DNA from: Frankia sp. AiPs1
GTDB lineage: Bacteria > Actinomycetota > Actinomycetes > Frankiales > Frankiaceae
DNA: 64,000 nucleotides
Assembly: GCF_023716945.1 (NCBI RefSeq)
Contig: NZ_JAMQQF010000001.1
Coordinates: 25,863 to 89,862, forward strand
Reading direction: 5' to 3'
Made by a program: the position numbers and the translations under genes. Below are positions 35,938-55,500 of this stretch, one piece after another. Below the pieces are notes generated by a model. That model saw only the letters and a list, made by a program, of their open reading frames with translations, did no database searches and was not told the DNA's origin. Each line of letters opens with the position of its first letter. Positions within the stretch are counted from its first letter, which is position 1.

Positions 35938-37445
35938 CGACGTACCAGGGTCGCCGGTGCGCCTACGGGGGATATCTCAACTCGTACGTCAGGCGCTGTC
36001 AGCGTGCCCTCGGTTGTCGGGATCGTGACCACCTGGCCGGGTCTTCCGGTCGTGAGCCGCATACGACAGCGGAGCGTAAGTGCCTCGCCGAAGCCCAGAT
36101 CGGCGTCGTAGCTGTCCAACGCCTCTTCGAGGAGGGCAACCAGGACCTCCAGGTGAGCACCGTCGATCTCGGCGAAGTGCGCCAGCCCCACCATGCCGGG
36201 CGTTACCAGTCCGGCTGAGAGTTCCGCGAGCCGCGCCAGCTCCGCAGTCGCCGCCTGCTCCTCCGCTTGACGAGAGAGCTCCAGGTTTTCCATCCGCCGC
36301 GGCGCGCGAGGCGCCGCCGCGCTGCTGGCCCGGCCACGCAGGCTCACGGATACTGCTTCACGCGGGGCGGCTGCTGTGATGGCCGCGGGCAGGACGTCGT
36401 CATCGTCGATCGTGACCTGCGGATGCTGCGCCGCCCACAGCCCGGTCGCGGCAGCGAACACCCCGTCGGCGTCCTCTGCGGATTCCTGTGCGTGTAGCAG
36501 CCGGGCTAGCTCGTGGAAGTCCGCTGCCAGGTCACTGGTGCGGTTGGACGCGTAGTAGCGACGCGTGATGGCCGACAGCAATGCGTCGATCGCGTACAGC
36601 GCAGAGTCGATGATCCTGTCGATGTTTCCGCCGGAGCTGAACCAGGCATCGAGGCTCTCCAGATCCGCGACGGCGTCGTCGATCCACGCTGCTGTACCGC
36701 CGGGTGCCATCGCCCCGATTCCCGGGGCGGCGGCCTCCGCGATGACGGCGTAGCCCGTGGCGCGGACGTCCTGCAAGCTGCGCCGCAACGGCGCGAGCCC
36801 TGCCTGGGTGTGCTGAACGAACTGGCGGAGCACGAGCATGATCCGGGCGCGGCTCTCGCTGAATACTTCGTCGTCGGTGACATCCTGCTGGTTGAGCATC
36901 CGCATCGCGTCGTAGTAGTCGCCTGCGGCGTCGAGCAGCTGGCCCAGATGCGATCGCACGTGCGTGAGATCGAGTGCCACCCGCATCGGTCCCTCGTCGA
37001 GGTGGAGGAGGAGCTCGCGCAGTGTGTCCTGAATGGACTCGATCAATTGCGGTGGCAGGGCGAGCACGCGGTCAAGGTCATTGATCGCGTCGCGGACCGA
37101 CCGCACGATGATGCGGCCCTTCTTGCTCAGCGACCACGCTTCCTGGCGACGGTGGCCATCGCGCAGGTCCTCCCGGGCGGCCGTCGGGCTCAGGAACGGC
37201 AGGACGAGCCGCATCTGGACCAGGCCGTCCAGCCGGGAGCGCAGCTGCTCGGCGGGCATCGGCTCGCCGTATCCGTCCCGCCGCATCTGCTCGGCGATGT
37301 CTCGCATCGTGGACATCGGCGCGGAACCACTGAGCCGCAGGAGGGCGGAGAGGATCGCCGCGTAGTCCTCGCGCGCCTCGCCGAGTGGCTCGCCGACAAA
37401 ACGCCACATATCGGGCTCGATGCCCCGCCACCAGTCGCTTCTCAT
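35934..37445 (-). CDS. jetA: Wadjet JetA-like kleisin subunit (DUF2397/TIGR02677-like)
   Basis: This 503-residue protein fits the DUF2397/TIGR02677 family, the MukF-like kleisin of this Wadjet branch: DMWRFVGEPLGEAREDYAAI, a winged-helix start LRSRLDGLVQMRLVLPF, a helical middle with ITRRYYASNRTSDLAADFHELARLL and a C-terminal domain. It is the first gene of the jet block, 145 bp after sbcC on the same strand, so it may share the sbcDC transcript or have its own promoter in that gap. The ATG lies at 37445. Confidence 0.8.
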   Translation of the reverse strand: MRSDWWRGIEPDMWRFVGEPLGEAREDYAAILSALLRLSGSAPMSTMRDIAEQMRRDGYGEPMPAEQLRSRLDGLVQMRLVLPFLSPTAAREDLRDGHRRQEAWSLSKKGRIIVRSVRDAINDLDRVLALPPQLIESIQDTLRELLLHLDEGPMRVALDLTHVRSHLGQLLDAAGDYYDAMRMLNQQDVTDDEVFSESRARIMLVLRQFVQHTQAGLAPLRRSLQDVRATGYAVIAEAAAPGIGAMAPGGTAAWIDDAVADLESLDAWFSSGGNIDRIIDSALYAIDALLSAITRRYYASNRTSDLAADFHELARLLHAQESAEDADGVFAAATGLWAAQHPQVTIDDDDVLPAAITAAAPREAVSVSLRGRASSAAAPRAPRRMENLELSRQAEEQAATAELARLAELSAGLVTPGMVGLAHFAEIDGAHLEVLVALLEEALDSYDADLGFGEALTLRCRMRLTTGRPGQVVTIPTTEGTLTAPDVRVEISPVGAPATLVRR

Positions 37446-37590: not shown

Positions 37591-40587
37591 TCATGGCAGG
37601 AGTCCCCCGTCGAGGTCCTCGTCGACGAGCCGGCCCCGCTCCAACATGGAGGCCCAGTGCGCCTGGCTTCCGGATTCGTCACGGGTCACGAGGAGCACGT
37701 CACCGATGTTCTCGGCCACGGCTCGCATGTGGCTGATGACGGCGACGAGCCGTCCGCCCAGGGTCTGTCGCGACAGGGCAGCGAGTGCCTCAGCGAGGGT
37801 GTCGGCGTCGAGAGAGCCGAATCCCTCGTCGAGCAGAAGAGCGTCGGCGCGTCCACCGGCACGTCCAGCGAGGTCGACGACCGCCAGCGCCAGCGCCAGG
37901 CTGGCCAGGAATGTCTCTCCGCCGGAGAGCGTCCGTCCGTCACGTGGCTGCGACGTGTGCCGGTCGATGATGCGGAAGTCGGGGGAGAACGCGAACCGCC
38001 CGGCGGTCATGGCCAGCAGCTGGTCGGTAGCCAGTCCGAGGAGGGCCCGCTGCCGGCGCGCGACCACCGCGGCTTGGAAGCGGCCCGCGGCCAACAGCGT
38101 GGACAGTTCGCGGAGGGCGTCGACGAGCGGGGTCGCGGCCTCGATCCGCCGGTCCAGATCTGAGGCGATCGGTGTCTCGCGCTCCGCACGGTCGAGGTCC
38201 GTCTGGGCCACCATCGCTGCGGCTGCGGCTTCGATGATGAGTCTGTCGAACTGCTCCATCGCATCCACCCCGGCAGCGGACAGGACTTCGGTGATCTCGT
38301 CGTCAGCTTGCCGGGCCTGGGACGTGGCGGTAGCCGCTTCGTCGCGCGCCGCGCGCAGCAGAACGGCGACGGTGTCCTCAAGAGCCGCGGCCCAGGTTAC
38401 GGACGTGGGCAACTCGTCGTCTGGGGAGCGCGGTGGTGGCGGCTGGTGGCCAACGAGGAGGGCGGTCTCGCTGGCGCGCCGAACCAGCTCGTCGAGCGCG
38501 TGGAGGAGCTTTGTAACGGGTCTTTCCACCTCGGTGAGATGCCGCGTGTCGAGGCGGGCTTGCAGGTCACCAAGCTCGCCTATCTGCGCTCGTGCGGCGG
38601 TCAACTGATCAGTGACCGCCTTGAGTTCCACCTCCCATTCGCGCGCGGTGCCGAGCAGCAGGTCCAGGCCCTCGACGGTGACCGGGTCGAGGCGCCAGAG
38701 CTCGGGCAGTTCCTCCAGCTTTCCCACTGATGCGCGGAGGCGTTGATCAAGAGCGAGACGGTCTGCGGTCAAGCTGTCCTGCCGTCCAGCGAGCGCTCGA
38801 CGGCTCTGGTCCACCTTCGCAGCCTCAACGGCCAGGCTCTCCCGCGAAGCAGCCGCCACTTTGCCCTGTTCCTCCAGGCCCTCCTCCTCGGCGACACAGA
38901 TAGTTAGGAGCGGTAGCACGACCGCATCGGCAGGCTGGTCGAGGTCGACTGCTCTCAGCTGCGGGGCGAGCCGATCGACTACCAGGGCCAGCTTCTGGCG
39001 CTCTGCGACTGCGCGTGGTTCCAGCCGCTCAACATCCTCGATGGCGTTCCGGCGGCTGAGAACTGCGGCGCCATGCCGACCCTCAATCTCCTTCGCGGCG
39101 GCGGTCGCGGTGGCCAGCACGGCTCGGGCCTCGCCCACCTCGCGTTCAGGAGGTGGTTGGAAGGTGATTGGAAGGTCGCGGCTGCAGACTGGACACGGCT
39201 GCCCCGGCTGGCAGGCCGCTGCGGCGTGAGCGGCGCTGTTGGATCGCATGACCGCTTCGAGTACCTGGTCGGCGGCGATCTGCCTCTCCTTGGCCGCGCC
39301 GAGCTGTGCTGCGCTCTCCTCCATCGCGGCCTCAGCCTGCTTGATGCGAAGACGAGCGCCTTCGACCTCGCTCTCGGTGCCGTGCAGGGCAATCCGCAAG
39401 CTCTGCGCGGAGGCGACGACGGCGAGCTGGCTCGCGACGAGTTCCCTGGACGCAGCCACCGAGTCCGCGGCGGACCGTGCAGCCTCCTCGGCCTCGCCAA
39501 CGACAGTGGCCCGCTCCACGAGGCCGGCCGCGTGCTCATCGACGACGCGACGGTCCTCTGCGAGCCGCAGGTCGGCAGCCTCTATCCGGTTGCGGTCCGT
39601 ATCGATGTTCGGGAGCTGTTCGCGTGCCGTCTCGACGATGGCGATCGCTCGCGGAAGGATCGACGGCCCGCGGCCTTGCCTTTCAGCCTCATCGACGGTG
39701 TCCTGCAGCGCGCCTTCGCGTCTCTGCCACTCGGTCGTGGCGTCCTGGCACGTCTTCTGTTCGCCGCGGATCTCCTTCTCGAGACTGGCGAGCGCCCCAA
39801 GAACAGCAGCCGCCGTGGGCTGTCTCGCGGCCTGGAGCAGCTCTTCTTGGCGTCCGGCAGCGGTCGCGCGGGCGAGGAGTCCGTCGCGCCGGGCCGCGGC
39901 GCCGCGGGCGGTGTCACGAGCATCGGTGAACTGGGCTTCGCGTTGGCCTGCGTCATGAAGCCGCCGGGTCGCCGCCGCCGCGGCGGCGGGCGGATCATCG
40001 AGCAGCTTCTGGCGTTCGATGATGCGCTGCGTAAGCAGGTGGTGCAGGCGTTCGTGGGAGATCTGCGCCGTGTTCCGAATCGTGTCGAGTTGGTCGAGAC
40101 CAAGGACGCTCTTGAGGATTTCGGTCCGGTCCTTGGGGGTGGCGTACAGCAGCGCCTGGAACCGGCCCTGCGGCAGGATCACGGTCTTCAGGAACGCGCG
40201 ATAGTCAAGGCCGATCATCTTCTCGATGACGGTATTGACTTCTGTCCTGGAGTCGTGACGCGTACCGTCGTCCAGGCAGAGCAGCTCGTGGCGTGATGGT
40301 GGTGACGACGAACGGGAGATGGTCCGCGTGACCTGCCAGGTCTTGTCGGCGCACCGGAACGTGAGCCGCACCCGCATCGTGGCTGCACCGTCGGCGATCA
40401 GCTCGCTGGCGTTACGCCCGTCCCAGGTTGATCCGCCATACAGGGCGAAGTACAGAGCCTCGAGTAGCGAGGATTTCCCGGCGCCGGTGTCGCCGTGGAT
40501 GGCGATGAGACCGACCGAAGAGAAGTCGATCTCCTGCTCGGCCAGGTACGAGCGCAGTCCACGCAGGCTCAGGGACAGCGGCCTCAT
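37591..40587 (-). CDS. sbcC: SbcC-like exonuclease ATPase subunit
   Basis: This 998-residue SMC-type ATPase has the N-terminal LSLRGLRSYLAEQEIDF and Walker A HGDTGAGKSSLLEALYFALYG, coiled coils with a zinc hook CPVC at residues 465-468, and C-terminal LSGGETFLASLALALALVD with Walker B ALLLDEGFGSLD. With SbcD it forms the Mre11-Rad50-like nuclease that opens hairpins and blocked DNA ends. The ATG overlaps the sbcD stop. Sitting directly before jetA makes a dual role with Wadjet, such as clearing cut plasmid DNA, plausible but unproven. Confidence 0.88.
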   Translation of the reverse strand: MRPLSLSLRGLRSYLAEQEIDFSSVGLIAIHGDTGAGKSSLLEALYFALYGGSTWDGRNASELIADGAATMRVRLTFRCADKTWQVTRTISRSSSPPSRHELLCLDDGTRHDSRTEVNTVIEKMIGLDYRAFLKTVILPQGRFQALLYATPKDRTEILKSVLGLDQLDTIRNTAQISHERLHHLLTQRIIERQKLLDDPPAAAAAATRRLHDAGQREAQFTDARDTARGAAARRDGLLARATAAGRQEELLQAARQPTAAAVLGALASLEKEIRGEQKTCQDATTEWQRREGALQDTVDEAERQGRGPSILPRAIAIVETAREQLPNIDTDRNRIEAADLRLAEDRRVVDEHAAGLVERATVVGEAEEAARSAADSVAASRELVASQLAVVASAQSLRIALHGTESEVEGARLRIKQAEAAMEESAAQLGAAKERQIAADQVLEAVMRSNSAAHAAAACQPGQPCPVCSRDLPITFQPPPEREVGEARAVLATATAAAKEIEGRHGAAVLSRRNAIEDVERLEPRAVAERQKLALVVDRLAPQLRAVDLDQPADAVVLPLLTICVAEEEGLEEQGKVAAASRESLAVEAAKVDQSRRALAGRQDSLTADRLALDQRLRASVGKLEELPELWRLDPVTVEGLDLLLGTAREWEVELKAVTDQLTAARAQIGELGDLQARLDTRHLTEVERPVTKLLHALDELVRRASETALLVGHQPPPPRSPDDELPTSVTWAAALEDTVAVLLRAARDEAATATSQARQADDEITEVLSAAGVDAMEQFDRLIIEAAAAAMVAQTDLDRAERETPIASDLDRRIEAATPLVDALRELSTLLAAGRFQAAVVARRQRALLGLATDQLLAMTAGRFAFSPDFRIIDRHTSQPRDGRTLSGGETFLASLALALAVVDLAGRAGGRADALLLDEGFGSLDADTLAEALAALSRQTLGGRLVAVISHMRAVAENIGDVLLVTRDESGSQAHWASMLERGRLVDEDLDGGLLP

Positions 40588-41840
40588 GCTGACACCTCCG
40601 CACCGTCGGTTGGCGCCGCTGCGGTGAGCAGGGCCTCCTCGTCGAACACCGGATCGCGGTCTTCCTCAATGGCCCCGAGGATCCTGCTGAAGGCGTCGAG
40701 GACGATCTGGGGGCTGGCCGCGCGGCTGCCGCGCTCGGCGAGGAACTCGGCGAACATCTCCCGAAGGCTGGGCTCCGCGTCGACCTCCACCTGGTCCGCG
40801 GTGACGATGTCGATCGACAGGTCCGAGCGTGCGGGCGAGACATCGAGCAGGGTTGCGCGGGGCAGCATGCGCCGCACCTGTTCGGTCAGGGTGGGCAGGT
40901 GGGTGGGCGTCTCGACTGTGATCACGCACAGGTCGTCGTCGATTTCGCTAGCGATGGCCTCGAGCTGCTCCAGGGTGCCGTGGAACTTGGACAACCGCCG
41001 GCCAGCACTGAGAGGGACGGTTTCGACACGAGCCGGCGTGCCCGGCTCCGCTTCGACCAGAACCACGCTCTTCGTCTCATGGATCTCGCCGAAGTCCAAC
41101 GCGATCGGCGAGCCGGCGTAGCGGCCGACGACGTTCCTGCCCGGGAGTGCCTGCGGCCTGTGGAGGTGGCCGAACGCCGCGTAGCTCACGGCCGGGACCG
41201 TGTCGAGATCGGTCGAGTAGGTGGCGTCGATGTGCATCCCGCGCTCGCTGCCGCTGTGCGTCGCGCCTCCGACGTACAGGTGCGCTGCGAAGACGGCGAT
41301 GTCTGTCGTCGGGTTGAAGTTCGTGAGCAGTGCCCTGCCCAGTGCGGCCTCGATGCCGCGTACCTGCGTGAGGTAGTCGGTGCCCCAGCTGGCCGGGTCG
41401 CCGAAGGCGTCGGTCATCAGGTGGGCGTGCTGGAACGGTAGAGCGGCCAGCCGCACGGTGTGGCCGCTTCGGGTGGGGAACTGCAGGACGCCATCCTGCG
41501 GGGCCCGGACCTTGGCCACGAAGTGGACCCTTTGGACCCCGCCCGAGATGCGCATGTAGAGGTTGAGCGCGTCCAGCAGGCTGGCGGAGTCGTGATTGCC
41601 GCACACAACGACGACCGGGGCGATCGACGCGAGCTCACGCAGAGCATGCCCCGCCCGGGTGATGTCCTCGGTTGCTGGGCGGGCCCGGTCAAACAGGTCG
41701 CCCGTATGGCAGATCAGATCTGGGCCGAACGCGCGTGCCACCTCCGTGATTTCCGCGATGACCTGGTCGTGGTCTGGTGCCCGGGATTGGCGGTACAGCG
41801 TCGCACCTAGGTGCCAGTCGGAGGTGTGTAGCAGCTTCAT
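40584..41840 (-). CDS. sbcD: SbcD-like Mre11 family nuclease
   Basis: This is a 418-residue metallophosphoesterase of the Mre11/SbcD family, starting at MKLLHTSDWHLG (ATG at 41840). The metal ligands are visible in HTSDWHLG, HTGDLFDR, VVCGNHDS and FGHLHRPQ. A C-terminal cap follows. It pairs with SbcC through an ATGA overlap. The frame is open to 41996, but that part overlaps the divergent gene's promoter and start and is not expected to be translated. Confidence 0.88.
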   Translation of the reverse strand: MKLLHTSDWHLGATLYRQSRAPDHDQVIAEITEVARAFGPDLICHTGDLFDRARPATEDITRAGHALRELASIAPVVVVCGNHDSASLLDALNLYMRISGGVQRVHFVAKVRAPQDGVLQFPTRSGHTVRLAALPFQHAHLMTDAFGDPASWGTDYLTQVRGIEAALGRALLTNFNPTTDIAVFAAHLYVGGATHSGSERGMHIDATYSTDLDTVPAVSYAAFGHLHRPQALPGRNVVGRYAGSPIALDFGEIHETKSVVLVEAEPGTPARVETVPLSAGRRLSKFHGTLEQLEAIASEIDDDLCVITVETPTHLPTLTEQVRRMLPRATLLDVSPARSDLSIDIVTADQVEVDAEPSLREMFAEFLAERGSRAASPQIVLDAFSRILGAIEEDRDPVFDEEALLTAAAPTDGAEVSA

Positions 41841-41972
41841 GACGTTCCTTCGCACGCAGGACAGTGAGGGGTCGCGGTGCCGGCCGCGGCGTGGACGAGC
41901 CGGTACGGAACGCGACCGGCTCAAGTTTGGCAGAACGTGGAAGTACGTCAAGTCCCATGGTAGCTTTGACCC
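41841..41972. promoter_or_regulatory. Divergent promoter region between sbcD and the four-gene operon
   Basis: These 132 bases serve both directions. TAGCTT lies six bases before the ATG at 41973 and there is no ribosome site, which fits a leaderless actinobacterial promoter (TANNNT about 7 bases from the start). The region is less GC-rich towards the plus-strand gene. Confidence 0.45.
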
Positions 41973-42797
41973 ATGCCAAGCATGCCGGATGTCCAAGCAG
42001 CGATGGCCGAGGTGACTCGGCTGCAGCAGCGTCTGGCTGCGGCGCTCGATGCTGACGACCTTGGTGAGGCTGACCGGCTACTTGCCGAACTGAGCGTGGC
42101 GGAGCGGCACCGCAATCGCCTGCTGCAGCGCGCCTCGGCGGGCAGCGGAGCGTTCGATGCGGCTCCTCCGATCAGGGAGCAGGTGGCCGCCATCCTCGGG
42201 ATTCTGAGCCGGCCCGCCTCGGTCTCCCTCATCCGAGACGTCGCGACCGCCCGGTTCGGTGAGACGATCCAGCCAAGCCGGCTGGCATCGTTGCGCCGGG
42301 ACGAACAGCGCTCCTGGCAGGCCGCCCACCGCGGCACCGCACCGGGTGCCCGTTCGCTCGCCCGGCCGGTGTACGTCGTTCCAGCTCTCACGTTCGACCG
42401 GTTCGCCCCCGTGAGGGGAATGCTCGCCCTGTCGAGCTGGCCGCTGGAGATCAGACTGATCGCGCCTGCCAGCGCCAGGGTGGACGTCCTGTACATCATC
42501 ATGCGGCTGGTCGACGAGCTCGATCGCACGCCCGACTCGCCGTGGGCACCGAACCTCCGACGTCTTGTCTGGCGCTTCGCACACACGATCGCTGGCGCCG
42601 TTGAGATCAGGGGTGGATTTGACTACAGCTCCGTCCGTGAGGCCGCGGAACGCGAGCTACAGCAGATCTCGGATACCGACACAACCGAACGCGCTGAGGC
42701 CGCGGAACGGGCCCACGCGAAGCTTGACCCCGAAACCCAATTGTTCGGCGCTACTATGCGCCTCGCCAACCGACCCTCCTCAGAGGCCACTGGATGA
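41973..42797 (+). CDS. Unknown protein, first gene of the Cas4-like/helicase operon
   Basis: This 274-residue protein starts with a predicted coiled coil (AAMAEVTRLQQRLAAALDADDL then GEADRLLAELSVAERHRNRL, residues 8-50). A possible winged-helix region follows (REQVAAILGILSRPASVSLI, RDVATARFGETIQPSRLASL), then a helical domain ending in charged residues. The winged-helix part suggests DNA binding or regulation. I recognise no family. It overlaps the next gene by 4 bp (ATGA), so it is translated with it. Confidence 0.7.
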   Translation: MPSMPDVQAAMAEVTRLQQRLAAALDADDLGEADRLLAELSVAERHRNRLLQRASAGSGAFDAAPPIREQVAAILGILSRPASVSLIRDVATARFGETIQPSRLASLRRDEQRSWQAAHRGTAPGARSLARPVYVVPALTFDRFAPVRGMLALSSWPLEIRLIAPASARVDVLYIIMRLVDELDRTPDSPWAPNLRRLVWRFAHTIAGAVEIRGGFDYSSVREAAERELQQISDTDTTERAEAAERAHAKLDPETQLFGATMRLANRPSSEATG

Positions 42798-43963
42798 TCT
42801 TCCGTGACGCCCGGGAACGTCTCGTGCACTTCCGCGGCGACTTCCCGGCCAAGCCGCTCGACGCTCGGCGCATCGCCGGACTGCTGGACGCTCCCGGATG
42901 CATGCGTCGTCAGGTGATCGATGCCGCATCGGTGCCGATGAAAGATCTGGCACCGCTCATTGGCTGCCGCGAGCCGCGGCAGAGCTCATACGCACTGCAG
43001 CGAGGCGTGCGTTTCGAGCAGAGCGTGACGTCCAATGCGATGTCCTTCCTGCTGCCACTGGTACGTGAGCAGCTCGCACTCGACGTTCGCGAGGTACGCG
43101 AGCAGGACCTGTCCACCGTCCAGGTGCGCACCCAGTTCCCGGACCTGGACCGGGACGCCCTCACGGACCACAGGGTGAGGACGACGCGCGACTCCGTCGC
43201 CCAGATGCTCGCCGGCGATCAGCGGGCGATCAACCTGCTGCGACACCCTTATCTCGTCCTGACGCTCGGCGACATGCCCACATATCTGGAGCCGGACCTG
43301 CTGGCCTACGCCGCGTCGGGCACGCTCGCGCCGATCGAGATCAAGTCTTTTCCCTGCATCGATGGCATCGCCGATCCCGCGAAGACAGCGGAAGCCGCCC
43401 GCCAGACGGCGGTCTACATGGTCGCCCTGTGCCGGCTCGTCGAGAACCTGGGGCAGCCCTCGTCCCGGATCGCCTCCCAAGGCCTTCTGGTGATGACCCG
43501 CGACTTCACACTCGAGGCATCCGGTAGCCTGCTCGACCTGCGCCCCCAGGTGCGGCGTCTGGAGCGGGTCCTGGCGAACTTCCCCCATGTCACGCAGCTC
43601 GCGGCGCAGATTCCGACGGCCGTGTCTCTACCGGCGCTCCCCAGCAGGGACACCAGCCAGACGGAGCGGACGGCGGCCAGCGCCCAGGCGCGCGAGGCGG
43701 TCGGCGCTCTTCCCATGCGGTTTGGCGACGGATGCACAGGCTGCCCGCTGCTCGACTTCTGCCGCGGTCAGGCACAACGCGAGGAAAGCGTCGCGCAGCT
43801 CGGTACGCAAGCTGCCAACATGTGCGGCGACGTCTCCACCGTCTCACACGCCCTCGCCCTCACCGCCGGTACCCGGACACCCACCACCGCGGCCGAGAAG
43901 GCGGTCGCCGAGGAACTACGCCGCGCTGCCATCGCGGTACAGCTGGCAGGCGCTGCCGCATGA
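42794..43963 (+). CDS. Cas4/RecB-like PD-(D/E)XK nuclease with predicted Fe-S cluster
   Basis: This 389-residue protein has a nuclease core with EPDLLAYAASG (Asp168), IEIKSF (Glu182, Lys184) and QTAVY (Gln204-Tyr208), the D...EXK...QxxxY order of RecB/Cas4-type enzymes. Four cysteines, C36 in APGCMRRQ and C314, C317 and C323 in GCTGCPLLDFC, are placed as in Cas4 and AddB, where they hold a 4Fe-4S cluster. It probably trims or cuts DNA with the helicase encoded two genes later. It is coupled to both neighbours by ATGA overlaps. No cas1 or CRISPR array is nearby, so CRISPR adaptation is unlikely. Confidence 0.78.
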   Translation: MIFRDARERLVHFRGDFPAKPLDARRIAGLLDAPGCMRRQVIDAASVPMKDLAPLIGCREPRQSSYALQRGVRFEQSVTSNAMSFLLPLVREQLALDVREVREQDLSTVQVRTQFPDLDRDALTDHRVRTTRDSVAQMLAGDQRAINLLRHPYLVLTLGDMPTYLEPDLLAYAASGTLAPIEIKSFPCIDGIADPAKTAEAARQTAVYMVALCRLVENLGQPSSRIASQGLLVMTRDFTLEASGSLLDLRPQVRRLERVLANFPHVTQLAAQIPTAVSLPALPSRDTSQTERTAASAQAREAVGALPMRFGDGCTGCPLLDFCRGQAQREESVAQLGTQAANMCGDVSTVSHALALTAGTRTPTTAAEKAVAEELRRAAIAVQLAGAAA

Positions 43964-45366
43964 GCGTCGACGTGTACCTCGGTCTGAGCGCAATCGAGAG
44001 AGGGCGTGCCGTCGCCCGCGCGGCAAGGCGTCACGTTCACCTCGCCGCAGAGCCATTCGTTGTCGTGGGCTACCACCTGCCAGGAGATCCAGGCGCCCCA
44101 ATCGGTCTCCTGTACGGAACCCGCCGTGAACAGCCGACCGTCATCGGAGTCGGCGAGCCCCGCGATCCGAAGCTGCGGTTCGCACAGCTCGCGCAGTTCG
44201 CGATGGCTCTCAACGGCTACGTCGCGCAGTTCGTCCAGCCCTCGGCCAGCAGCAGACGCCCGCAGGACACGCGCGTCCGAATGGGCGGCCCTCAGCTGAT
44301 CGTGGCGAACCAGGCAACCGCGCAGTGGCTGTGTGACCTGATGGGACGGCGGCTGCGCTACCTGAGGTCCGAGGGCGACTGGCCGGTACATCCGAGCCTT
44401 CCCACCGCAGGAGCGCACCTGTCGTTCTTCGCCGGTCAGAGGGTGCCCGGCTCGTCGCTCGTTCTCCCGCTCACCGAGGTACTCGCCCAGCACTGGACCA
44501 CCGGCCAGCTGGCAGCCTTGAACGCGAACATCGCCAGCCAGCTCGCATGGATCAGCGATCCGGACTCGTTGGAGGAAGCCGAGCGCGCACTTCCGGCAGG
44601 TCCAGTGCCCGACCCGGAGTGGGAGGCCCTTGAGCTTCACGACGCGATCAAGGCCTACGGCAAGCTCGTCGAATCGCGCCCGGCCCAGGCGAATAGGCCG
44701 ATGATCCAGGCGATCGACGAGGCATTGCGCCCGTCCTGGCAGGCCTGCTGGCACGCTCTCGACCTACTGGCCGATCTCCCGCCAGCTGAGCGGACCCGCG
44801 ACCGCTGGAGCCATGACGTCCACCAATGGAACCGACACACGGAACGGGTGAGTGCCGGAACGGCGTACTTCCGCAAACGCCCCAAACAGCTGCAGGTCTT
44901 CCGATATCTCACTCGGCTCGAGCGGCTCACCGCCGACCTCAACCGCGAGATGGCCCTCGACGACCCCCTTATCATGGCCGGGTACGTCGCCTCCGGCGAG
45001 GCGCTATCCGGGGACGTCGTCGCCGTCGACCTGTCCGGGCGCCCGCCCCGTCTCCAGGTGCGCCCGCACCTGCCGTTCCTGCGTCCCATCGGCACCGATG
45101 TCTTCTGGCACCCACCTCAAGCCGCGGACGTCAGAAGCCCCGGGAGACCGCCGGTCGTGAGCCTGACCATGACGGGCACGACCACTGACGGAGACGTGAC
45201 CTTCAACGTCACCGCCGGCGCTATCCAGAAAAAGCTCCACCACCGGCTTCCCCGACCCGGACAGCAGGTCGTGTTCTCGCCCTTCGGTCCACGCGACTAC
45301 CACCAGGACACGCTTCCCGCAGAGCTCCCGTGGACCCACGCCGACGATCAAGACGGCGAGCGATGA
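43960..45366 (+). CDS. Unknown 468-aa protein between nuclease and helicase
   Basis: I do not recognise this 468-residue protein. It starts MSVDVYLGLSAIERGRAVAR at an ATG overlapping the nuclease stop. The N-terminal 100 residues are mixed alpha/beta, the middle is largely helical (WQACWHALDLLADLPPAERT, YFRKRPKQLQVFRYLTRLERL), and the last 120 residues look beta-rich (VVSLTMTGTTTDGDVTFNVTA), perhaps an OB-like or barrel domain. No catalytic motif is obvious. Its fixed position suggests a structural or specificity subunit of the complex encoded by this operon. Confidence 0.72.
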   Translation: MSVDVYLGLSAIERGRAVARAARRHVHLAAEPFVVVGYHLPGDPGAPIGLLYGTRREQPTVIGVGEPRDPKLRFAQLAQFAMALNGYVAQFVQPSASSRRPQDTRVRMGGPQLIVANQATAQWLCDLMGRRLRYLRSEGDWPVHPSLPTAGAHLSFFAGQRVPGSSLVLPLTEVLAQHWTTGQLAALNANIASQLAWISDPDSLEEAERALPAGPVPDPEWEALELHDAIKAYGKLVESRPAQANRPMIQAIDEALRPSWQACWHALDLLADLPPAERTRDRWSHDVHQWNRHTERVSAGTAYFRKRPKQLQVFRYLTRLERLTADLNREMALDDPLIMAGYVASGEALSGDVVAVDLSGRPPRLQVRPHLPFLRPIGTDVFWHPPQAADVRSPGRPPVVSLTMTGTTTDGDVTFNVTAGAIQKKLHHRLPRPGQQVVFSPFGPRDYHQDTLPAELPWTHADDQDGER

Positions 45367-46697
45367 CCCCGCAGGACGGCGGCTCTCCAGCCGCCGCACA
45401 CGGTGCCGCCGTCGACCGGATCTGGCAGCTGTTCGACGATCAGGCACGAGCAATTGTGGTCAACTCCCCGCCCGGAGCCGGCAAGTCGACTCTGGTGCAG
45501 CGGACCGCGCAACGTCTCGCCCCAGGCAGCCAGATTCCGATCATTACCCAGACCAACGACCAGGCAGACGACCTGGTCCGCAGCCTCGCGCGCAGCCTCG
45601 CCAACACGACCCTCGCCGTCGGGAGGCTGCACCGGGCCGATCGCTACTCCCCGCCGCCCGGGATCCCCGCCTCGAACAAGATCGAAGACTTGGACAACTG
45701 CCAGATCGTCGTGGCACCAGCCGACAAGTGGGCCTACGTCAAGGAAGATCACCGCTGGGACATCGGCATCATCGACGAGGCCTACCAGGTGTCCTCGGCG
45801 CATCTGGTCCGAATCGCCGCACGATTCGATCGGCTGCTCCTCGTCGGCGACCCCGGCCAGCTCAGTCCCTTCACCACGGCGGAGGAGGCTGCCCTGCGTG
45901 CGACGGGATGCTGGCCACTGGCGACTGCCGCGGGCACAGTCCTCCGCACCTATCCCACCACTCCCACCGTCGAACTCCCGATCTCCTGGCGGCTACCGGA
46001 GAGCGGGGCTCGCGTCGTCGCCGACAGCTTCTACGCGAAGCCCTTCACCGCTGGATCCACAGCCGACGAACGCGGCTTGTGGACGCCCATCCGAGCGGCC
46101 CGCGACGGCCACCTCGACCGCGTCCTCGAAACCGCGATCGAACACGGCTGGTGCCTCCTAGAACTTCCCGAAGCCCTCCTGCCACGCACCGACCCCGAGT
46201 GCGTGGAAGCGATCGTCGACGTCGTACGGCACCTCCTCCTCAGCCGAACACATGTAATCGACAGTGACACGCGAAGACCACTCCGCCCCGCCGACATCGC
46301 GATCGGCGTTACGCATCGCGATCAACGAGAGCGGATACGCGCGCGAATCGACGAGGCGTGCGCCGACCTCGGCGTCCCGCCACGCGAGATCACCGTCGAC
46401 ACGGCCAATAAACTGCAGGGTCGTCAGTTCGAGGTCGTCGTCGCCTGGCACCCTCTCTCTGGGCGACGAGACGCCTCCGCGTTCCACCTCGAATCCGGCC
46501 GGCTCTGCGTCCTCGCCTCTCGCCATCGCCAGGCCTGCATCGTCGTCGCGAGAGCCGGAATCCGTGAGCAACTCGACGCCTACCCCCATAGCGAACCAGT
46601 CTGGCTCGGCGCGACAACGCCAGACATCGACGGCTGGGAAGCTAACCACAGGTTCCTCGACCATCTCGCGGACCATTCAGTCCGCCTCGGAGCATGA
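45363..46697 (+). CDS. SF1-type DNA/RNA helicase
   Basis: This 444-residue helicase is reduced to a minimal core: Walker A SPPGAGKSTL near residue 40, motif II IIDEAYQ, motif III LLVGDPGQLSPF, and the C-terminal motifs THRDQRERIRARI, VDTANKLQGRQFEVVV and LCVLASRHRQACIVVAR. The overall pattern fits the UPF1/Dna2-like SF1B group, here without extra domains. It overlaps the preceding gene by ATGA. Together with the Cas4-like nuclease it resembles a split Dna2-like nuclease-helicase. Confidence 0.82.
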   Translation: MTPQDGGSPAAAHGAAVDRIWQLFDDQARAIVVNSPPGAGKSTLVQRTAQRLAPGSQIPIITQTNDQADDLVRSLARSLANTTLAVGRLHRADRYSPPPGIPASNKIEDLDNCQIVVAPADKWAYVKEDHRWDIGIIDEAYQVSSAHLVRIAARFDRLLLVGDPGQLSPFTTAEEAALRATGCWPLATAAGTVLRTYPTTPTVELPISWRLPESGARVVADSFYAKPFTAGSTADERGLWTPIRAARDGHLDRVLETAIEHGWCLLELPEALLPRTDPECVEAIVDVVRHLLLSRTHVIDSDTRRPLRPADIAIGVTHRDQRERIRARIDEACADLGVPPREITVDTANKLQGRQFEVVVAWHPLSGRRDASAFHLESGRLCVLASRHRQACIVVARAGIREQLDAYPHSEPVWLGATTPDIDGWEANHRFLDHLADHSVRLGA

Positions 46698-47140
46698 GCA
46701 TCGAGGCTGTCAACGGTTTCTGGATCTTGGATCCCGTTCTCGCCAGCGCAGCCAGTCCTGACTTCGTGGTCCGGCTCCACGGCTGGATTGATCGGGGTGC
46801 AGCCCGGGTCGCGCACCTCGACGGGCAGATCGTCGAGGCCCTCGCGGTCGGCCCCGCACCGTGATACGTGCCGGCCCCCGACCGGTCTGAGCTCTACCTC
46901 GAAGCGTTCGTGACGTCTCGGGCGTAGGCCGGCCGTGGAGTCGGCCGGCGGCTGCTCGCCGCGGTGGTCCGCGAGACGACCTCCGACGGCGCCGAACAGG
47001 TACGGGCCGACTGCTGGGCCCGCGGCGACGGAGGACTCTTGCGCTACTACGAGCAGCAGGGCTTCACGCAGGCCGAGACCTTCCACGTCGGCACCTGGTC
47101 CGGACAGCTACTCGTACTCCCGCTCAGCCCACAGTCCTGA
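46694..47140 (+). pseudogene. GNAT acetyltransferase with two in-frame stop codons
   Basis: An ATG overlaps the helicase stop (ATGA) and opens a 148-codon frame of GNAT type: FWILDPVLASAASPDFVVRL at the start, then SELYLEAFVTSR, the acetyl-CoA loop AGRGVGRRLLAAVV, and YYEQQGFTQAETFHVG at the end. It is interrupted by TGA at 46862 (codon 57) and TAG at 46925 (codon 78), with no frameshift anywhere. Single changes from Trp and Tyr codons would explain both. Sequencing error is possible but would need to strike twice. Confidence 0.7.
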
Positions 47141-48608: not shown

Positions 48609-51065
48609 TCACCGGCCTTGGCGACGCCCGCCGCTGGCGGGCACGGCCCAGCCGTCCGGGTGGGGCCAATTCACCAGCGCGGACGGCGGGCGAAGGGTGG
48701 GCAGGAAGCCGACCAGATCCGGCGGCAGCGGCCCGACATGGTCATCGAAGTAGACGTCGACCAGTTGGCGGGTTGTCTCGTCGTACAGGAACAACGCGCC
48801 GCGAGACAGCGAGAGCTGATGCTTCTTGGTCTGGAGGTACCCCCGTAGACGACGCTCCTCGTTCACGAGGTTCGTTCCTGCCGGAAGTGTCGCCCAGACC
48901 AGCAGCCAGCCTTCCTCGCGAACCGTTGTCCCCGCGGTCGGCACTGTCATGCTGCGACCGACCCCATGGTCGGAGGGATGGTCCAGGAGCGCACGCACGT
49001 TCTTTGCCAGCCTGTGCTGTGTCGGCGTGGACCCTTCCAGCAGGGTCGCGCCGATACTCAGCCACCCTTGGACCCTCCGGGCCTCCAGCTCGTCGATGGT
49101 GTCCGCGAGTGGTGATGGCACCATGCGGGGCTTGGGCGCGCCGTCCTCGCCGGCGGACGCGCGCTTGGAGTAGAACCATCGGTCCAGGGCATCGGTTCGG
49201 CTCGTGACGAACGCGGGCGCCTGCTCGCGGTAGCGGCGACGCTCGGCGGTGGTCGGCTCAGGCATGAACGGGAACGCTGCGCGAACCTGGTCGGGATCGG
49301 GCTCTACCCACAGGCCCGCCTCAAAGAAGTAAAGGAAGAGGTCGAGCTCATCCGACGCCCTGAACATCTGCGTGACGTCAGGGTTCCGGCGACGCCGCAG
49401 GTAAAGGAGGAATTCCGCGGGCCGATCGACCAGCTCAACGATCAGTTCCAAGTCGTGCAGGGACACCGTCCATGGGATGTTGCTCGGTTCGAGTATCCCC
49501 GCGCGCACAAGTTCCGCGGTCGCAGTCGTCACGCTCGACAGGTCGTCCAGGCTAACAGCGATGGTGTGCACCTCGCGGATGTGGCTGAGATCGACCCAGC
49601 CCTCGTCCTCGATGCGTACACCGCCGTCGCGCAGGATGGCATCACGCATCCGTCCGCTCTGCATGGCGGCCTTGGTAATGATGCCGGTCAGGTCGGTCCG
49701 AATACGGTTGACTTTGCCGCCACGGGACTGTGCACTGAACGCGACTGCCTTGTCCTCGACGACCAGAGCGACATCGTCCATGAGGACCAGATGGTCGCCT
49801 TCGACCCGCTTCGTGTACTTGTTGGGGTCGCCGCCGTCAAGCTCCTCCTGGGTCGCCGGGACGTAGTACTCGTATCCGTCGCGGAAGTTCGCGCATGGAA
49901 GGACCCGGGCAAGGACACTGCTGATGCGAGTCTCAAGCAGATCGCCGCGGTGCTTCGCGTAGGTCTCCCAGAGAGCAGAATCCTTCAGCTCCGCTTCGAG
50001 TTTCTGGCGGATCGCGTCAGCCGAGAGCGCGTCGTGAGGCAGCATGAAGCGACCAGAGTCGGTGACAACGAGCGGGCGGGTCCGCCAGGGGTTGTCGCCT
50101 GCGGTGAACGCCTCCATTACGGCCGCGGGCGTGGTCGCACTCAGGTCGAGACGGAACCGATCCGCGATGGCGCGAACCCGGTTCTGCGGGACGCCGGTGG
50201 CTGCGACCAGCTCGTCGACGCCGACCGACACGTCGTCCTCGTCCGGCTCCCACGCCGCATCTACCACGGCACGCGCCGCGTCGATGATCTCGGGATCTGC
50301 CTCCGCGTCGGGGTCCGATCCCATCGCCGAGTGGATCGAGTCGGCCATGGCTTGGAACCGCTCGTTCAGCGCGGTCAGCTGCAAGTGGTGAACTGCCGTG
50401 AGCACCGCGAGCGCGTCCATGACGTCGAAGCCGAGCCGGGAGAGCAGCTCGTTGCGTACTTCGTCGTTGTCGTTGAACAGCTGTACGAGGGTCGTCTTGG
50501 CCATGTCGGGGTAGGCACCGTTGCGGACCCACACCTCGTATCCGCGCACGAGGAGGGCAATCATCGCCATCTTGTCGGTAGGCTCGGCGCCAGCGACGGC
50601 GCGGACGTGCGCCAATCGAAACAGGCGGTCCAGTTCGTCCGACGCCTCGGAGACGAACTGGCTGAGTGTCTGGGCCGGTGGTGTCTCCCGAGGTTCGGGA
50701 CTGTTCTCGTTCCGTGCTGCGAGCGCGAGGGCCGTCAGCAACTCGACCCGCGCCGCGCTGGAGGCCGGATCGACCGGGATCTGTCCGGCTGCGGCCCATG
50801 GCAGGAAGGCGAGCCGGGCGACCTCCGCCAGACGGAACGGGTTGAAAGCCTTTAGCCGAGCGGCAAACTGGCTCAGGGTCTCCTCGAACGCGGCATCGAT
50901 CTCGGTGACAGGGTCGTCGGCCTGGGCAATGGAGACAACGAAATCCTGCATCTGTGACATCGAGTTGATGAGGAATTGGGCGTGCACATCGAAGACAGGG
51001 GTGTTCGATGTCGCACGCCGCTGTCTCTTGGTGCGTGCTGCGCGACGCTTCGACTTCGAGGCCAT
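48609..51065 (-). CDS. 818-aa protein with PD-(D/E)XK-like nuclease motif
   Basis: This large protein begins with a very basic tail (KSKRRAARTKRQRRA). The first 300 residues are helical. Around residues 370-440 the pattern GDLLETRISSVLARVL (Glu378), HLVLMDDVALVVEDKAVAF (Asp430, Glu437, Lys439) fits a PD-(D/E)XK nuclease core. The C-terminal 350 residues include YLQTKKHQLSLSRGALFLYD and have no named family that I recognise. A single-gene nuclease defence protein is the best guess. It is flanked by the DUF2637 copy C and divergent from the DUF7662-GIY-YIG gene. Confidence 0.65.
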   Translation of the reverse strand: MASKSKRRAARTKRQRRATSNTPVFDVHAQFLINSMSQMQDFVVSIAQADDPVTEIDAAFEETLSQFAARLKAFNPFRLAEVARLAFLPWAAAGQIPVDPASSAARVELLTALALAARNENSPEPRETPPAQTLSQFVSEASDELDRLFRLAHVRAVAGAEPTDKMAMIALLVRGYEVWVRNGAYPDMAKTTLVQLFNDNDEVRNELLSRLGFDVMDALAVLTAVHHLQLTALNERFQAMADSIHSAMGSDPDAEADPEIIDAARAVVDAAWEPDEDDVSVGVDELVAATGVPQNRVRAIADRFRLDLSATTPAAVMEAFTAGDNPWRTRPLVVTDSGRFMLPHDALSADAIRQKLEAELKDSALWETYAKHRGDLLETRISSVLARVLPCANFRDGYEYYVPATQEELDGGDPNKYTKRVEGDHLVLMDDVALVVEDKAVAFSAQSRGGKVNRIRTDLTGIITKAAMQSGRMRDAILRDGGVRIEDEGWVDLSHIREVHTIAVSLDDLSSVTTATAELVRAGILEPSNIPWTVSLHDLELIVELVDRPAEFLLYLRRRRNPDVTQMFRASDELDLFLYFFEAGLWVEPDPDQVRAAFPFMPEPTTAERRRYREQAPAFVTSRTDALDRWFYSKRASAGEDGAPKPRMVPSPLADTIDELEARRVQGWLSIGATLLEGSTPTQHRLAKNVRALLDHPSDHGVGRSMTVPTAGTTVREEGWLLVWATLPAGTNLVNEERRLRGYLQTKKHQLSLSRGALFLYDETTRQLVDVYFDDHVGPLPPDLVGFLPTLRPPSALVNWPHPDGWAVPASGGRRQGR

Positions 51066-52504: not shown

Positions 52505-55500
52505 GTGGGGCTGCGACCGACGCACCTCGGCTATGCCTACCAGGACCTGTTGACGGCGATCCGGCTCGTGGATGTCGCGCTCGGCCGCGCGCTCAGGGTG
52601 ATCGTCGACCTCAAAATGTTCGATGAAGACCGTTTCGACGACGTGACGTGTGAGTGGAGGGGTGGTGGCCGCGAGCGGCTTCAGATCAAACATTCGGCCA
52701 GCGGCAGCGAGTTGGCCGCAGCCAGCTTCACTGGCGATCGTCGCAGCCTTCGTCTGGATCTCCTTGTAGCAGCCGTCAATCGCGATCTTTCCGATTACCC
52801 TGGAACGACGTACCGGATTGTGCTCCGTGATACGGAACCGCGCGACGCGGACTTTGCTTCGATCCTCAAACCGGTCGAGAAGGGTTCTGATCCAGGACCG
52901 GTGTTTCAAGGACTGGGACGTAGCCGGTTTCGATTTGATCCAGAGGCACTCGGAATCACTATGCCGTGGCGGTCGATATTCGCGCATATGGAGAGTGATA
53001 CGGTTCGTCGTGCGTGTGAGCGTATTGTGGTCGACCTTGGACTTCCCGGCTGCTCGCTCAGCGTCCGTGACCCGGGCCCGATAGAACAGGTGCTGTTGCG
53101 CCGGGTCACCCACGAGCTCGGTGCGGGCCGCCCACCGAACCGGCATCGCGCGCCAGAAGATGTCGCACTTGCGCTCATTGAGGCGGCGCAAGCGGCGCGC
53201 AGCCTCAACGGCCCGAAGGGCGTCGTGACTGCGTCGAGCCTCCTTCCTCGGCTCGACCTCGCGGTCGATTTCGGCGCCGTCCGCCAGGGTCACCCTGTCG
53301 ACCGAAGCGTTGAGATCGCGCGACCGCGGGTGCTCGACGCACTGGTAGGAGCGACCAGCATGGCAGCGCGGGATGGTGGCTTGCTGGTCGTAACCGGCGA
53401 TCCCGGCGTCGGGAAGTCGTGGCTGTGCGAACAGCTCGCGGATCGCCTTCACGGCGAATGGATCGTCGCCCGACACCATTGCTGGCTCGGGGCGGAGGAC
53501 GCGAACAGGGACCGGCGAGTGCTTGCGGAAGTCGTCCTCGGTAGTTTGCTGGGGCAGCTTGAGGCAGCGGCTCCAGCAGGTCTGTCAGAGGTCCGGCCCC
53601 GTCTTGCCGCGACGATCGACACCCTAAGAGAGGCAGTCGTCGGAATCCGGAGGGATCAACCGGACCAGCCAATCGCTTTGATTGTCGACGGGCTGGATCA
53701 CGTCAACCGTGTTCTCGGGCATGTGGATGGCGCTGCTTTCCGGGCGCCCGTGGACCACGCCCGCAGGCTCGTCGACGAACTTGCGGCGGTTGATCTGCCG
53801 GCTGGCGTCGTTCTGGTGCTCGCCAGCCAACCAGGTGATCACCTTTCTCGGATCGATGGTACTGCTATGACTATTCCGCCGCTGGATTACAATGAGATCC
53901 GCGACTTGGTGCAGCGGCTCGGCGTGCTCGCCGCCGTGGGCGAAGCTGGGTCCGAGGCGGGTGACACAGACCGGGAACGTTCTGTCGTCGAGCTGGTAAG
54001 CTCCAGGTCTCGCGGTAACGCGCTGTACGTGACGTATCTGTGTCGTCAGGCCGTGAGCCCAGGGCCGCACCTCGGGGACTCGGAGCCTCAGCAGTTTAGG
54101 GCGATCGATCCGCTCGACCGGCTACGCGACGTCCCGGCCTCCGCCAGTACTTTGGACGAGTACTACGCCTATCTGTTCAATGGGCTCGCTGGCCGCCAGC
54201 AAACCGCAGTCAGTTTGCTCGCAGTCTGCGACTTTGCCGTAACCGCTGACGAGCTTCGCGACATTTTCCCTCAGGTTGCCCCTACGCTGGGGTCGGCGCT
54301 CGATGCGATCGTACCGATCATCACGCAGCAGCCAGGAATCGGTGGCCTGAAGATCCACCATGAAAGCTTCAGCCGGTTCATTCGCTGCGCTGTGCGGGAT
54401 GAGACCTGGATCGGCAATATCCGTGAGGCAGCAGCCGACTGGCTAACGCGGCGCGGGTTTTTCACGGATGCTCGCGCATTCCGTCACCTTCCGGAACTGC
54501 TGGCTGATCTCGGCCGCGACGGCGACCTGGCCGCCCTGATCGGACCTGATTTCCTTTCACGTGCGATCGGTGGCCTTCAGCCGCCCGCAGCGATCACTCA
54601 TACCTTGAATCTGGCCGCGCGGCGAAGCTCGGTCCTTGGGGACTGGCGGACACTTGTCCGGTGTGTTGAACTCCGCCGCGCGGCCGACACCTATGAGGAC
54701 GAAGGTATTACCAATACCCTCGTCACCTATGCCGACGTGCTGATCAAGATTGTTGGTGTAGACGCTGTCGCCGCGTCACTTGTCTATGACGGGGTCGCTA
54801 CCATGCCGGCGCGGTGGGGGCTGATGCTGTGCAACGCCGTCGATACTGCTGGCGGTGCCGCGCCTTGGGCGGTCTATCTCGCCGCGCGGGAGAAAAGTCG
54901 TCAGACAGACAACGTCGACTACGGCGATGAAATCGACACGGAAGTATTTCTGGCCGAGCTACGAGGCTCGCTGCGGCTGGAAGACAGGAACTCCGAAGCA
55001 GAACTCGGGGCCGACAGCACCGGAACAGTCTCAGAACGTGTTGCCCGGTTTCTCGGCCAGGACGGGCTGCCAGCGCCCGGTCGGGTGCTCGACGTTCTGC
55101 TGGACTGCCTCAGCCCTCAACCGCTCCTCGACACCATTCCGCTCCTCGAAGACGAGGAAACACGCGCCACACTCCTACTGCGACTCGCCGAAACGTCGGC
55201 GACCGATCGCGGCGGCCTGCCATCCCCCCGGACGCTCGCCGTCGCTTCTTGGGCATGCTCTTCGACGGTTGACCCACGGCGCCTCATGCGTCATGGCGTC
55301 CCGACTGCCGACCTCGCCGACGACATACTCGGGCCCGACACCCACGCGACCCTGAGCGCGGCCACCGCGGACCTGCTGCGCCACCCGAACCCCGGTCTGT
55401 CTGAGGCGATGCGGCGATGGCTGAGGTTGCTAGCCGTAGCGCACGAGCGGCATCCTCACGCGCCCAGCCGTTTGCTTCCCCTAGTTACCGGACCTGGCTT

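Follow-up and report, generated by a model that had tools for sequence, protein, structure and literature searches.

What does a compact nuclease-helicase operon do when it stands back to back with a Wadjet system? The question is raised by a locus of Frankia sp. AiPs1 lying within the 64,000-nucleotide stretch analyzed here (the window; contig NZ_JAMQQF010000001.1, positions 25,863 to 89,862), in which four genes, g1-g4 (41973-46697), are linked by a 4-base ATGA overlap at every junction and diverge from sbcD-sbcC-jetABCD on the opposite strand. A sequence-only reading of this stretch had described this arrangement correctly, as all four open reading frames (ORFs) are present and the neighbors at 28186-37445 match JetA2-JetD2 of Wadjet type II in PADLOC. 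It had treated g1-g4 as a unit, and these four genes do recur together; the frame proved too narrow here because sbcC and sbcD are co-inherited with g1-g4 while Wadjet is exchanged. The unit is six genes, with sbcC-sbcD facing g1-g4. We propose, at about even confidence, that it would act as a plug-in DNA-end resection machine degrading what its partner immune system, in this case Wadjet, has cut; its activity, order of action and purpose are predictions.

A six-gene unit with exchangeable Wadjet partners

The four-gene form was traced through its marker g1, which was found in 22 of the 393 genomes surveyed for the class and, within Streptomyces, in 33 of 392 (five shared). All four genes are present in every one of the 33 Streptomyces carriers, and g1-g2-g3-g4 stand in order in 19 of the 20 class carriers examined (the window's own genome and weak split hits of G269 were left out), the remaining carrier having a g1-like gene only. 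With additional loci from Micromonospora, Tardiphaga, plasmids, Nonomuraea and the window, the total is 57 (56 with four single genes, one with g3 and g4 fused), so that the recurrence of the four genes was confirmed both with and without Jet and SbcCD genes nearby. Loci L127-L132, with a g1-like gene only, and the split hits of G269 were not counted as cassettes. Counting the terminal-repeat twins L183, L192 and L194 once gives 54 distinct loci, 24 with sbcC-sbcD (sbcDC) divergent from g1 and 30 without. Micromonospora okii and M. sicca carry g1-g4 with sbcDC, and an 8-kb contig assigned to the proteobacterium Tardiphaga carries g1-g4 without it; on this contig a DNA-methyltransferase-like gene (L003 1453-2736; SPPY motif, by eye) lies ahead of g1-g4. 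Within the window's order the cassette was found in 1 of 35 genomes, the window's own, and is therefore accessory there. Ratios of nonsynonymous to synonymous substitution rates of 0.10-0.39 (five pairs of relatives, four genes each) indicate that g1-g4 are under purifying selection.

The cassette sbcD (40584-41840, minus strand, 418 aa) encodes an Mre11-type nuclease scoring 128 bits against TIGR00619, above cut-off (scored on a longer ORF from 41996). The cassette sbcC (37591-40587, minus strand, 998 aa) encodes a Rad50-type ATPase identified by Pfam AAA_23 and SbcC_Walker_B, its TIGR00618 score of 194 bits being below the cut-off of 478.5. A single branch with a support of 100 split 21 cassette SbcD proteins, including that of the window, from 13 other SbcD proteins of 12 genomes, 10 of which are cassette carriers (the 13 include an additional copy close to the G514 end; L083, L179 and L180 were left out of the tree). 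The branching of cassette SbcD resembles that of the g3-g4 tree, which implies that sbcDC and g1-g4 have been together since before the window's clade diverged from the Streptomyces clade, or that they moved by transfer en bloc. Each of the ten cassette genomes examined has another SbcD besides, with 30-37% identity to that of the cassette, and a distant SbcD-like gene is present on another contig of the window's genome; two genomes of the pPIWI type described below hold only the non-cassette SbcD. A third distinct SbcD, 32% identical to the cassette type, was observed near both ends of one assembly (G514:C1:54736-55866, L247, and its mirror copy).

Wadjet systems were identified near 18 of the 24 distinct sbcDC-linked loci, comprising type I in seven (L082, L083, L119, L178, L179, L181, L182), type II in seven (the window, L111, L126, L180, L184, L186, L188) and type III in four (L001, L125, L187, L189); five have none, and L002 was not scored as its contig ends inside sbcC. 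In the window, the minus-strand type II genes are jetA (35934-37445; PDLC00539 JetA2, E 2e-45; DUF2397), jetB (34621-35937; PDLC00543 JetB2, E 2.5e-50), jetC (29388-34637; PDLC00553 JetC2, E 8e-167) and the nuclease gene jetD (28186-29391; PDLC00557 JetD2, E 7e-45). Calls were made with PADLOC for the window, L126, L187 and L001 (JetA3 and JetC3 for type III), from annotation for L082 and L083, and otherwise with tblastn and profile hidden Markov models (HMMs) built from these same loci. The putative JetB proteins of L187 and L001 matched no PADLOC model, type III JetD was assigned from its position, and the L125 contig breaks off with only the JetC/JetD end visible. No called gene separates Wadjet from the cassette in 15 of the 18 loci; one gene intervenes in L119 and two in L126, and jetD faces sbcC in L125. 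A JetC2 match in L195 (64 bits, others 1040-2434) was too weak to be counted as Wadjet.

For the 30 loci lacking sbcDC, the flanks analyzed mostly span 5.4 kb beyond g4 and 9.5 kb beyond g1 (less in L003, L121, L124 and L171), and neither tblastn nor the profile HMMs detected Wadjet in any of them; the Fisher p for the sbcDC-Wadjet link is 5e-10 when kinship is ignored. Stronger evidence than this linkage test is the turnover of Wadjet itself: on the g3-g4 tree the type changes seven times among I, II and III (nine times when "none" is included) while sbcDC-g1-g4 stays. The end branches leading to L178 and L179 (type I) and to L180 (type II) measure only 0.011-0.015.

Two further gene sets were seen around these loci. 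After sbcC, L190-L195 (G495, G440, G514, G618) carry a conserved trio (531, 257 and ~345 aa) in place of Wadjet; in L191 a TnsB-like protein with a Mu-type C-terminal domain comes first and an AAA protein second, hinting that this clade is carried by a Tn7-like element. A restriction-type DEAD helicase of 746-749 aa with helicase-associated repeats follows g4 or stands behind Wadjet in L119, L126 and L211 beside L187 (Pfam and PADLOC matches from L119, the others alike by eye).

pPIWI-RE partners and chromosomal location

A second partner accompanies the four-gene form. In 11 Streptomyces loci without sbcDC, g1-g4 diverge from a complete pPIWI-RE operon (PprPDDEXK, PprRE, PprDinG, PprPIWI; HMM on L169, tblastn on all). 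These 11 fall within one supported clade of 13, the other two members (L171 and L173) being without pPIWI-RE; L171 had been considered pPIWI-linked until it failed the tblastn check, and the count is thus 11 and not 12. L108 also adjoins HmaA/HmaB. This partnership would suit a role of g1-g4 as an assistant to systems that cut DNA. Passages of the 2013 pPIWI-RE description give a three-gene operon or a standalone gene and mention no g1-g4-like partner (PMC3702460).

Among six Streptomyces assemblies with a chromosome-sized contig, sbcDC-linked copies lie 4.7, 6.7, 18, 24 and 24 kb from the contig end in five and 524 kb in the sixth, and three of them have a mirror copy at the other end. Two plasmid-borne cassettes are likewise near record ends. 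The five pPIWI-linked copies on chromosome-sized contigs lie 1.2-3.4 Mb inside (Mann-Whitney p 0.002, for a test chosen post hoc). Telomere protection was rejected as the main role, as location is its sole support and end enrichment of Wadjet has already been reported; it was kept within the repair alternative discussed below.

Composition of the nuclease-helicase core

The product of g2 (42794-43963, plus strand, 389 aa) is a PD-(D/E)XK nuclease with four cysteines, for which Fe-S (iron-sulfur) binding is predicted. Motif residues D168, E182, K184, Q204, Y208, C36, C314, C317 and C323, named in the sequence-only reading, are all as it gave them. Across 133 aligned rows from 132 loci (the window was entered twice), C314, C317 and C323 are invariant, as is C36 among the 72 rows extending to its column; one cysteine precedes and three follow the nuclease motifs, as in Dna2. 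The earlier label "Cas4-like" holds insofar as the fold matches Cas4, with equally good matches to EXO5, RecB and AddAB. Pfam searches with 23 proteins (g2 and relatives) returned weak PDDEXK_1 matches in four, with neither a Dna2 nor a Cas4 model among the matches, and 25 g3 rows gave chance matches only; profiles of g2 and g3 showed no sequence link to the PDB at E <= 1.

The product of g3 (43960-45366, plus strand, 468 aa) has an exonuclease-like fold without the usual acidic pair, after which come a putative stalk and beta-barrel, and is a predicted scaffold. That g4 (45363-46697, plus strand, 444 aa) encodes a minimal superfamily 1 (SF1) helicase, as first read, was upheld by matches to AAA_30, AAA_11 and AAA_12, making it Upf1/Dna2-like; UvrD_C_2 was sub-threshold (E 0.094) and the UvrD-helicase N-terminal model of Pfam was not matched. 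Walker A sits at median residue 38 (maximum 63) in the 130 of 133 relatives showing the pattern, values that depend on called starts, and there would be no room for a 1B domain ahead of it. Natural fusions, all pairwise, join g2 to g3 in P0083 and P0084 and g3 to g4 in L195; a g2-g3 fusion in L049 was dismissed as its joint contains unknown bases. Because of these fusions and a g4 apparently without 1B, g2-g3-g4 are suggested to form a split Dna2-like machine. The earlier alternatives, a split Dna2 or an AddAB-like machine, can thus be ranked, the former being preferred because g4 matches Upf1/Dna2-type models and not the UvrD N-terminal one.

The core also exists without g1. A scan of GTDB contigs with g3 found at least 582 relatives, of which the best 80 were analyzed: a helicase follows g3 in all 80 (with another gene between in L017) and a nuclease match precedes it in 77, the three others (L023, L030, L068) starting less than 700 bases from the locus end. 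None of the 77 loci L004-L080 has an sbcDC, Jet or g1 match at E <= 1e-6. In 12 Streptomyces gene maps the trio lies amid recurring flanking families, many found in 40-62 loci, and is therefore read as a fixed chromosomal locus, so that g2-g3-g4 alone is probably a housekeeping locus in many Streptomyces. The trio is also found in Catellatospora and Actinocatenispora, and g3 in 10 of 246 genomes of the phylum. A defense setting, as originally suggested from the sbcD-sbcC-jetABCD neighbors, was supported, but in view of the fixed trio the module is not defense-only. A phage-borne function was unsupported, with no g3 relative in 50,697 phage records or in IMG/VR by a pattern-based scan.

A candidate regulator and its repeats

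The product of g1 (41973-42797, plus strand, 274 aa by ORF call) is a candidate DNA-binding subunit or regulator with a putative N-terminal coiled coil and a probable winged helix read from the sequence. Its 108 homologs share the conserved blocks SLRRDE-RSW and LFG, and a match of residues 1 to ~60-80 to designed helical bundles indirectly supports the coiled coil; a sub-threshold CATASP match (E 0.011) was dismissed as a coiled-coil match. The 132-bp divergent promoter region between sbcD and g1 (41841-41972) contains degenerate TGG/TGGAA repeats, read from the sequence. Tandem TGGAA elements spaced by 8-11 bp reach a chain score of at least 5 upstream of g1 in 28 of 57 regions (twins counted; an earlier strict pattern caught 14 of 57), compared to 0.19% of random windows, zero shuffles and 0 of 11 loci in which the trio lacks g1. 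The array is also present on the Tardiphaga-assigned contig, the window scores only 3, and several cassettes score 1-2. Since the array follows g1, we infer that g1 probably controls the operon by binding these repeats ahead of its gene, and it may also load the complex. A g1 relative heads another operon (g1-like, ~620-710 aa, ~180-200 aa) beside an HU-type gene on five Streptomyces linear plasmids (L128-L132, at about 13.8-17.3 kb of each locus); its large protein had no Pfam match in the copy tested (L129).

Proposed role and alternatives

To our knowledge, how the linear product is removed after Wadjet cutting is not settled. The six-gene unit could supply this step as follows. Wadjet would linearize a small circular plasmid, and the cassette's own Mre11-Rad50 pair would find and open the DNA end. 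Nuclease g2 and helicase g4, held by g3, would then unwind and cut the strands like a split Dna2, and the linear product would be lost instead of re-joined. Production of the machine would probably be switched by g1 from the TGGAA repeats ahead of its gene, with g1 possibly loading the complex. Passages of two papers favor such a scheme: Wadjet cuts (small) circles and spares linear DNA, with Rad50 complexes sensing or acting on ends (PMC10586767), and in E. coli an unprotected linear plasmid with hairpin ends is restricted by Mre11-Rad50 (PMC12624138). The broader proposal, to which we give slightly less than even credence, is that several cutting immune systems draw on one portable Mre11-Rad50 and split-Dna2 machine to destroy DNA. 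It would be the common back end of Wadjet types I, II and III and, reduced to g1-g4, of the Argonaute-like pPIWI-RE, traveling as a self-regulated cassette close to the termini of linear chromosomes and plasmids.

Several observations weigh against this role. Five of the 24 cassettes have no Wadjet in the fetched DNA (L185, L190, L191, L193, L195), and the sbcDC link amounts to two independent contrasts on supported branches (three on all) from two clades, so that the Fisher p overstates the case; some forks under the seven type changes are also unsupported in what is a quick tree. Wadjet is itself enriched at Streptomyces chromosome ends, according to part of PMC10482375. The g2 catalytic columns are not strict (D168 in 120 of 133 rows, E182 in 118, Q204 in 120, Y208 in 117; position 184 is K in 108 and R in 22), and Dna2 gives g2 a lower score than EXO5, Cas4 and RecB do. 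The barrel match of g3 is weak and tied with ATP-synthase and ferredoxin-reductase barrels, and a g3 profile compared to 16 Upf1-like helicases with hhalign gave no match, while g4 matched at 99.3%. The L083 record holds sbcC and sbcD in pieces and the L125 sbcD match contains a TGA. Finally, since g2-g3-g4 is a fixed Streptomyces locus in the absence of g1, sbcDC and Wadjet, its core activity may be repair and not defense.

Three other explanations were weighed. In the first, which we consider doubtful, SbcCD-g1-g4 is an independent restriction arm that attacks incoming linear ends (phage, linear plasmids) while Wadjet deals with circles, to which SbcCD is blind; their targets would be complementary, without hand-over. 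The sparing of linear DNA by Wadjet and the action of Rad50 complexes on ends (PMC10586767, in part), the reduced transformation by unprotected linear plasmid (PMC12624138, in part), the five cassettes without Wadjet and the presence of cassettes on linear replicons all agree with it. Conversely, Wadjet accompanies 18 of the 23 cassettes in which its status was determined, and the partnership of sbcDC-free g1-g4 with pPIWI-RE points to an aid for cutting systems more than to an end sensor.

The second, unlikely in our view, is a machine for DNA repair or telomere processing that happens to reside next to Wadjet in subtelomeric islands. It would be a bacterial parallel of the break resection that Mre11-Rad50 and Dna2 carry out in eukaryotes, and would accord with the fixed g2-g3-g4 locus across Streptomyces and with the sbcDC-linked copies 4.7-24 kb from the end in five of six (near-)complete chromosomes, three of them mirrored. 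However, the four-gene form is sporadic (any g1 in 33 of 392 Streptomyces genomes; 1 of 35 in the window's order), cassette genomes retain a separate SbcD, and Wadjet mostly abuts the cassette and is replaced type for type. Chance clustering, whereby defense and mobile genes gather at chromosome ends and SbcCD-g1-g4 and Wadjet are neighbors without shared function, is very improbable: enrichment of Wadjet on Streptomyces chromosome arms (PMC10482375, in part) and the transposition-type genes that come after one cassette clade (TnsB-like in the one copy tested) favor it, but 15 of 18 pairs have no called gene between them, types I, II and III recur, and the pairing extends to Micromonospora okii (type III) and the window (type II).

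If resection of cut DNA is indeed the role, a dedicated unit for every Wadjet type would supply the removal step, which is testable by gene deletion, and immune systems would share a common degradation back end. Bacteria would also have a resection pathway akin to Mre11-Rad50/Dna2, of which Streptomyces, a genus with linear chromosomes and capped ends, has a core version.

Neighboring genes

Directly after g4, an acetyltransferase-like frame (46694-47140; GNAT-like by eye) shares an ATGA overlap with the g4 end and contains two in-frame stops. Its pieces had no Pfam match and no counterpart was evident by eye 3' of g4 in L001 or L002; it is probably a dead gene outside the unit. Just past the operon, an 818-aa protein (48609-51065, minus strand) matched nothing in Pfam, NCBIfam or PADLOC, and two overlapping plus-strand genes farther along (53867-57754 and 57751-58896; 1295 and 381 aa) had no Pfam or PADLOC match at E <= 0.01.

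Comparison with known systems

The initial view that the gene set belongs to no named system was sustained: g1, g2 and g3 matched none of the PADLOC 2023 families at E <= 1 and no Pfam or NCBIfam model over cut-off, and g4 gave partial matches to helicase models of other systems. Full-text searches of open-access articles in PubMed Central brought up no title or abstract indicative of this unit; subscription papers and preprints were outside the scope of these searches.

Among individual nucleases, g2 differs from Cas4, EXO5 and the pAgo-associated ACE1 nucleases in having no Pfam Cas4 match and no CRISPR setting. The absence of a CRISPR array and cas1, already stated in the sequence-only reading, was corroborated, since no direct repeat of at least 22 bases within 120 bases exists across 26000-60000, and hence no array there, and Cas1 was absent from the 18 window proteins scanned against Pfam. 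With AddAB, AdnAB and RecBCD the unit would share a helicase and a RecB-type nuclease working on ends, and the g2 fold matches RecB and AddAB; in contrast, g4 is Upf1/Dna2-like and not UvrD-like SF1A, and is unfused to the nuclease.

The pPIWI-RE system, found opposite g1-g4 in 11 Streptomyces loci, has a PD-(D/E)XK protein of its own, but its proteins are different from g1-g4. Wadjet types I-III neighbor 18 of 24 sbcDC-linked loci and abut 15; g1-g4 and sbcDC are nevertheless not Jet proteins (no Jet model in PADLOC matched g1-g4), and the unit pairs with any Wadjet type.

Compared to Mre11-Rad50 and Dna2 resection in eukaryotes, the cassette is accessory and partnered with immune systems, and it has an extra exonuclease-like domain and g1. 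Dna2 is a single-polypeptide nuclease-helicase, whereas g2 and g4 are separate genes in a version split into three, and the Pfam Dna2 model is unmatched. Both nonetheless unite an Mre11-Rad50 pair with an Fe-S-type nuclease and an SF1B-type helicase, in the same order of nuclease, putative barrel and helicase.

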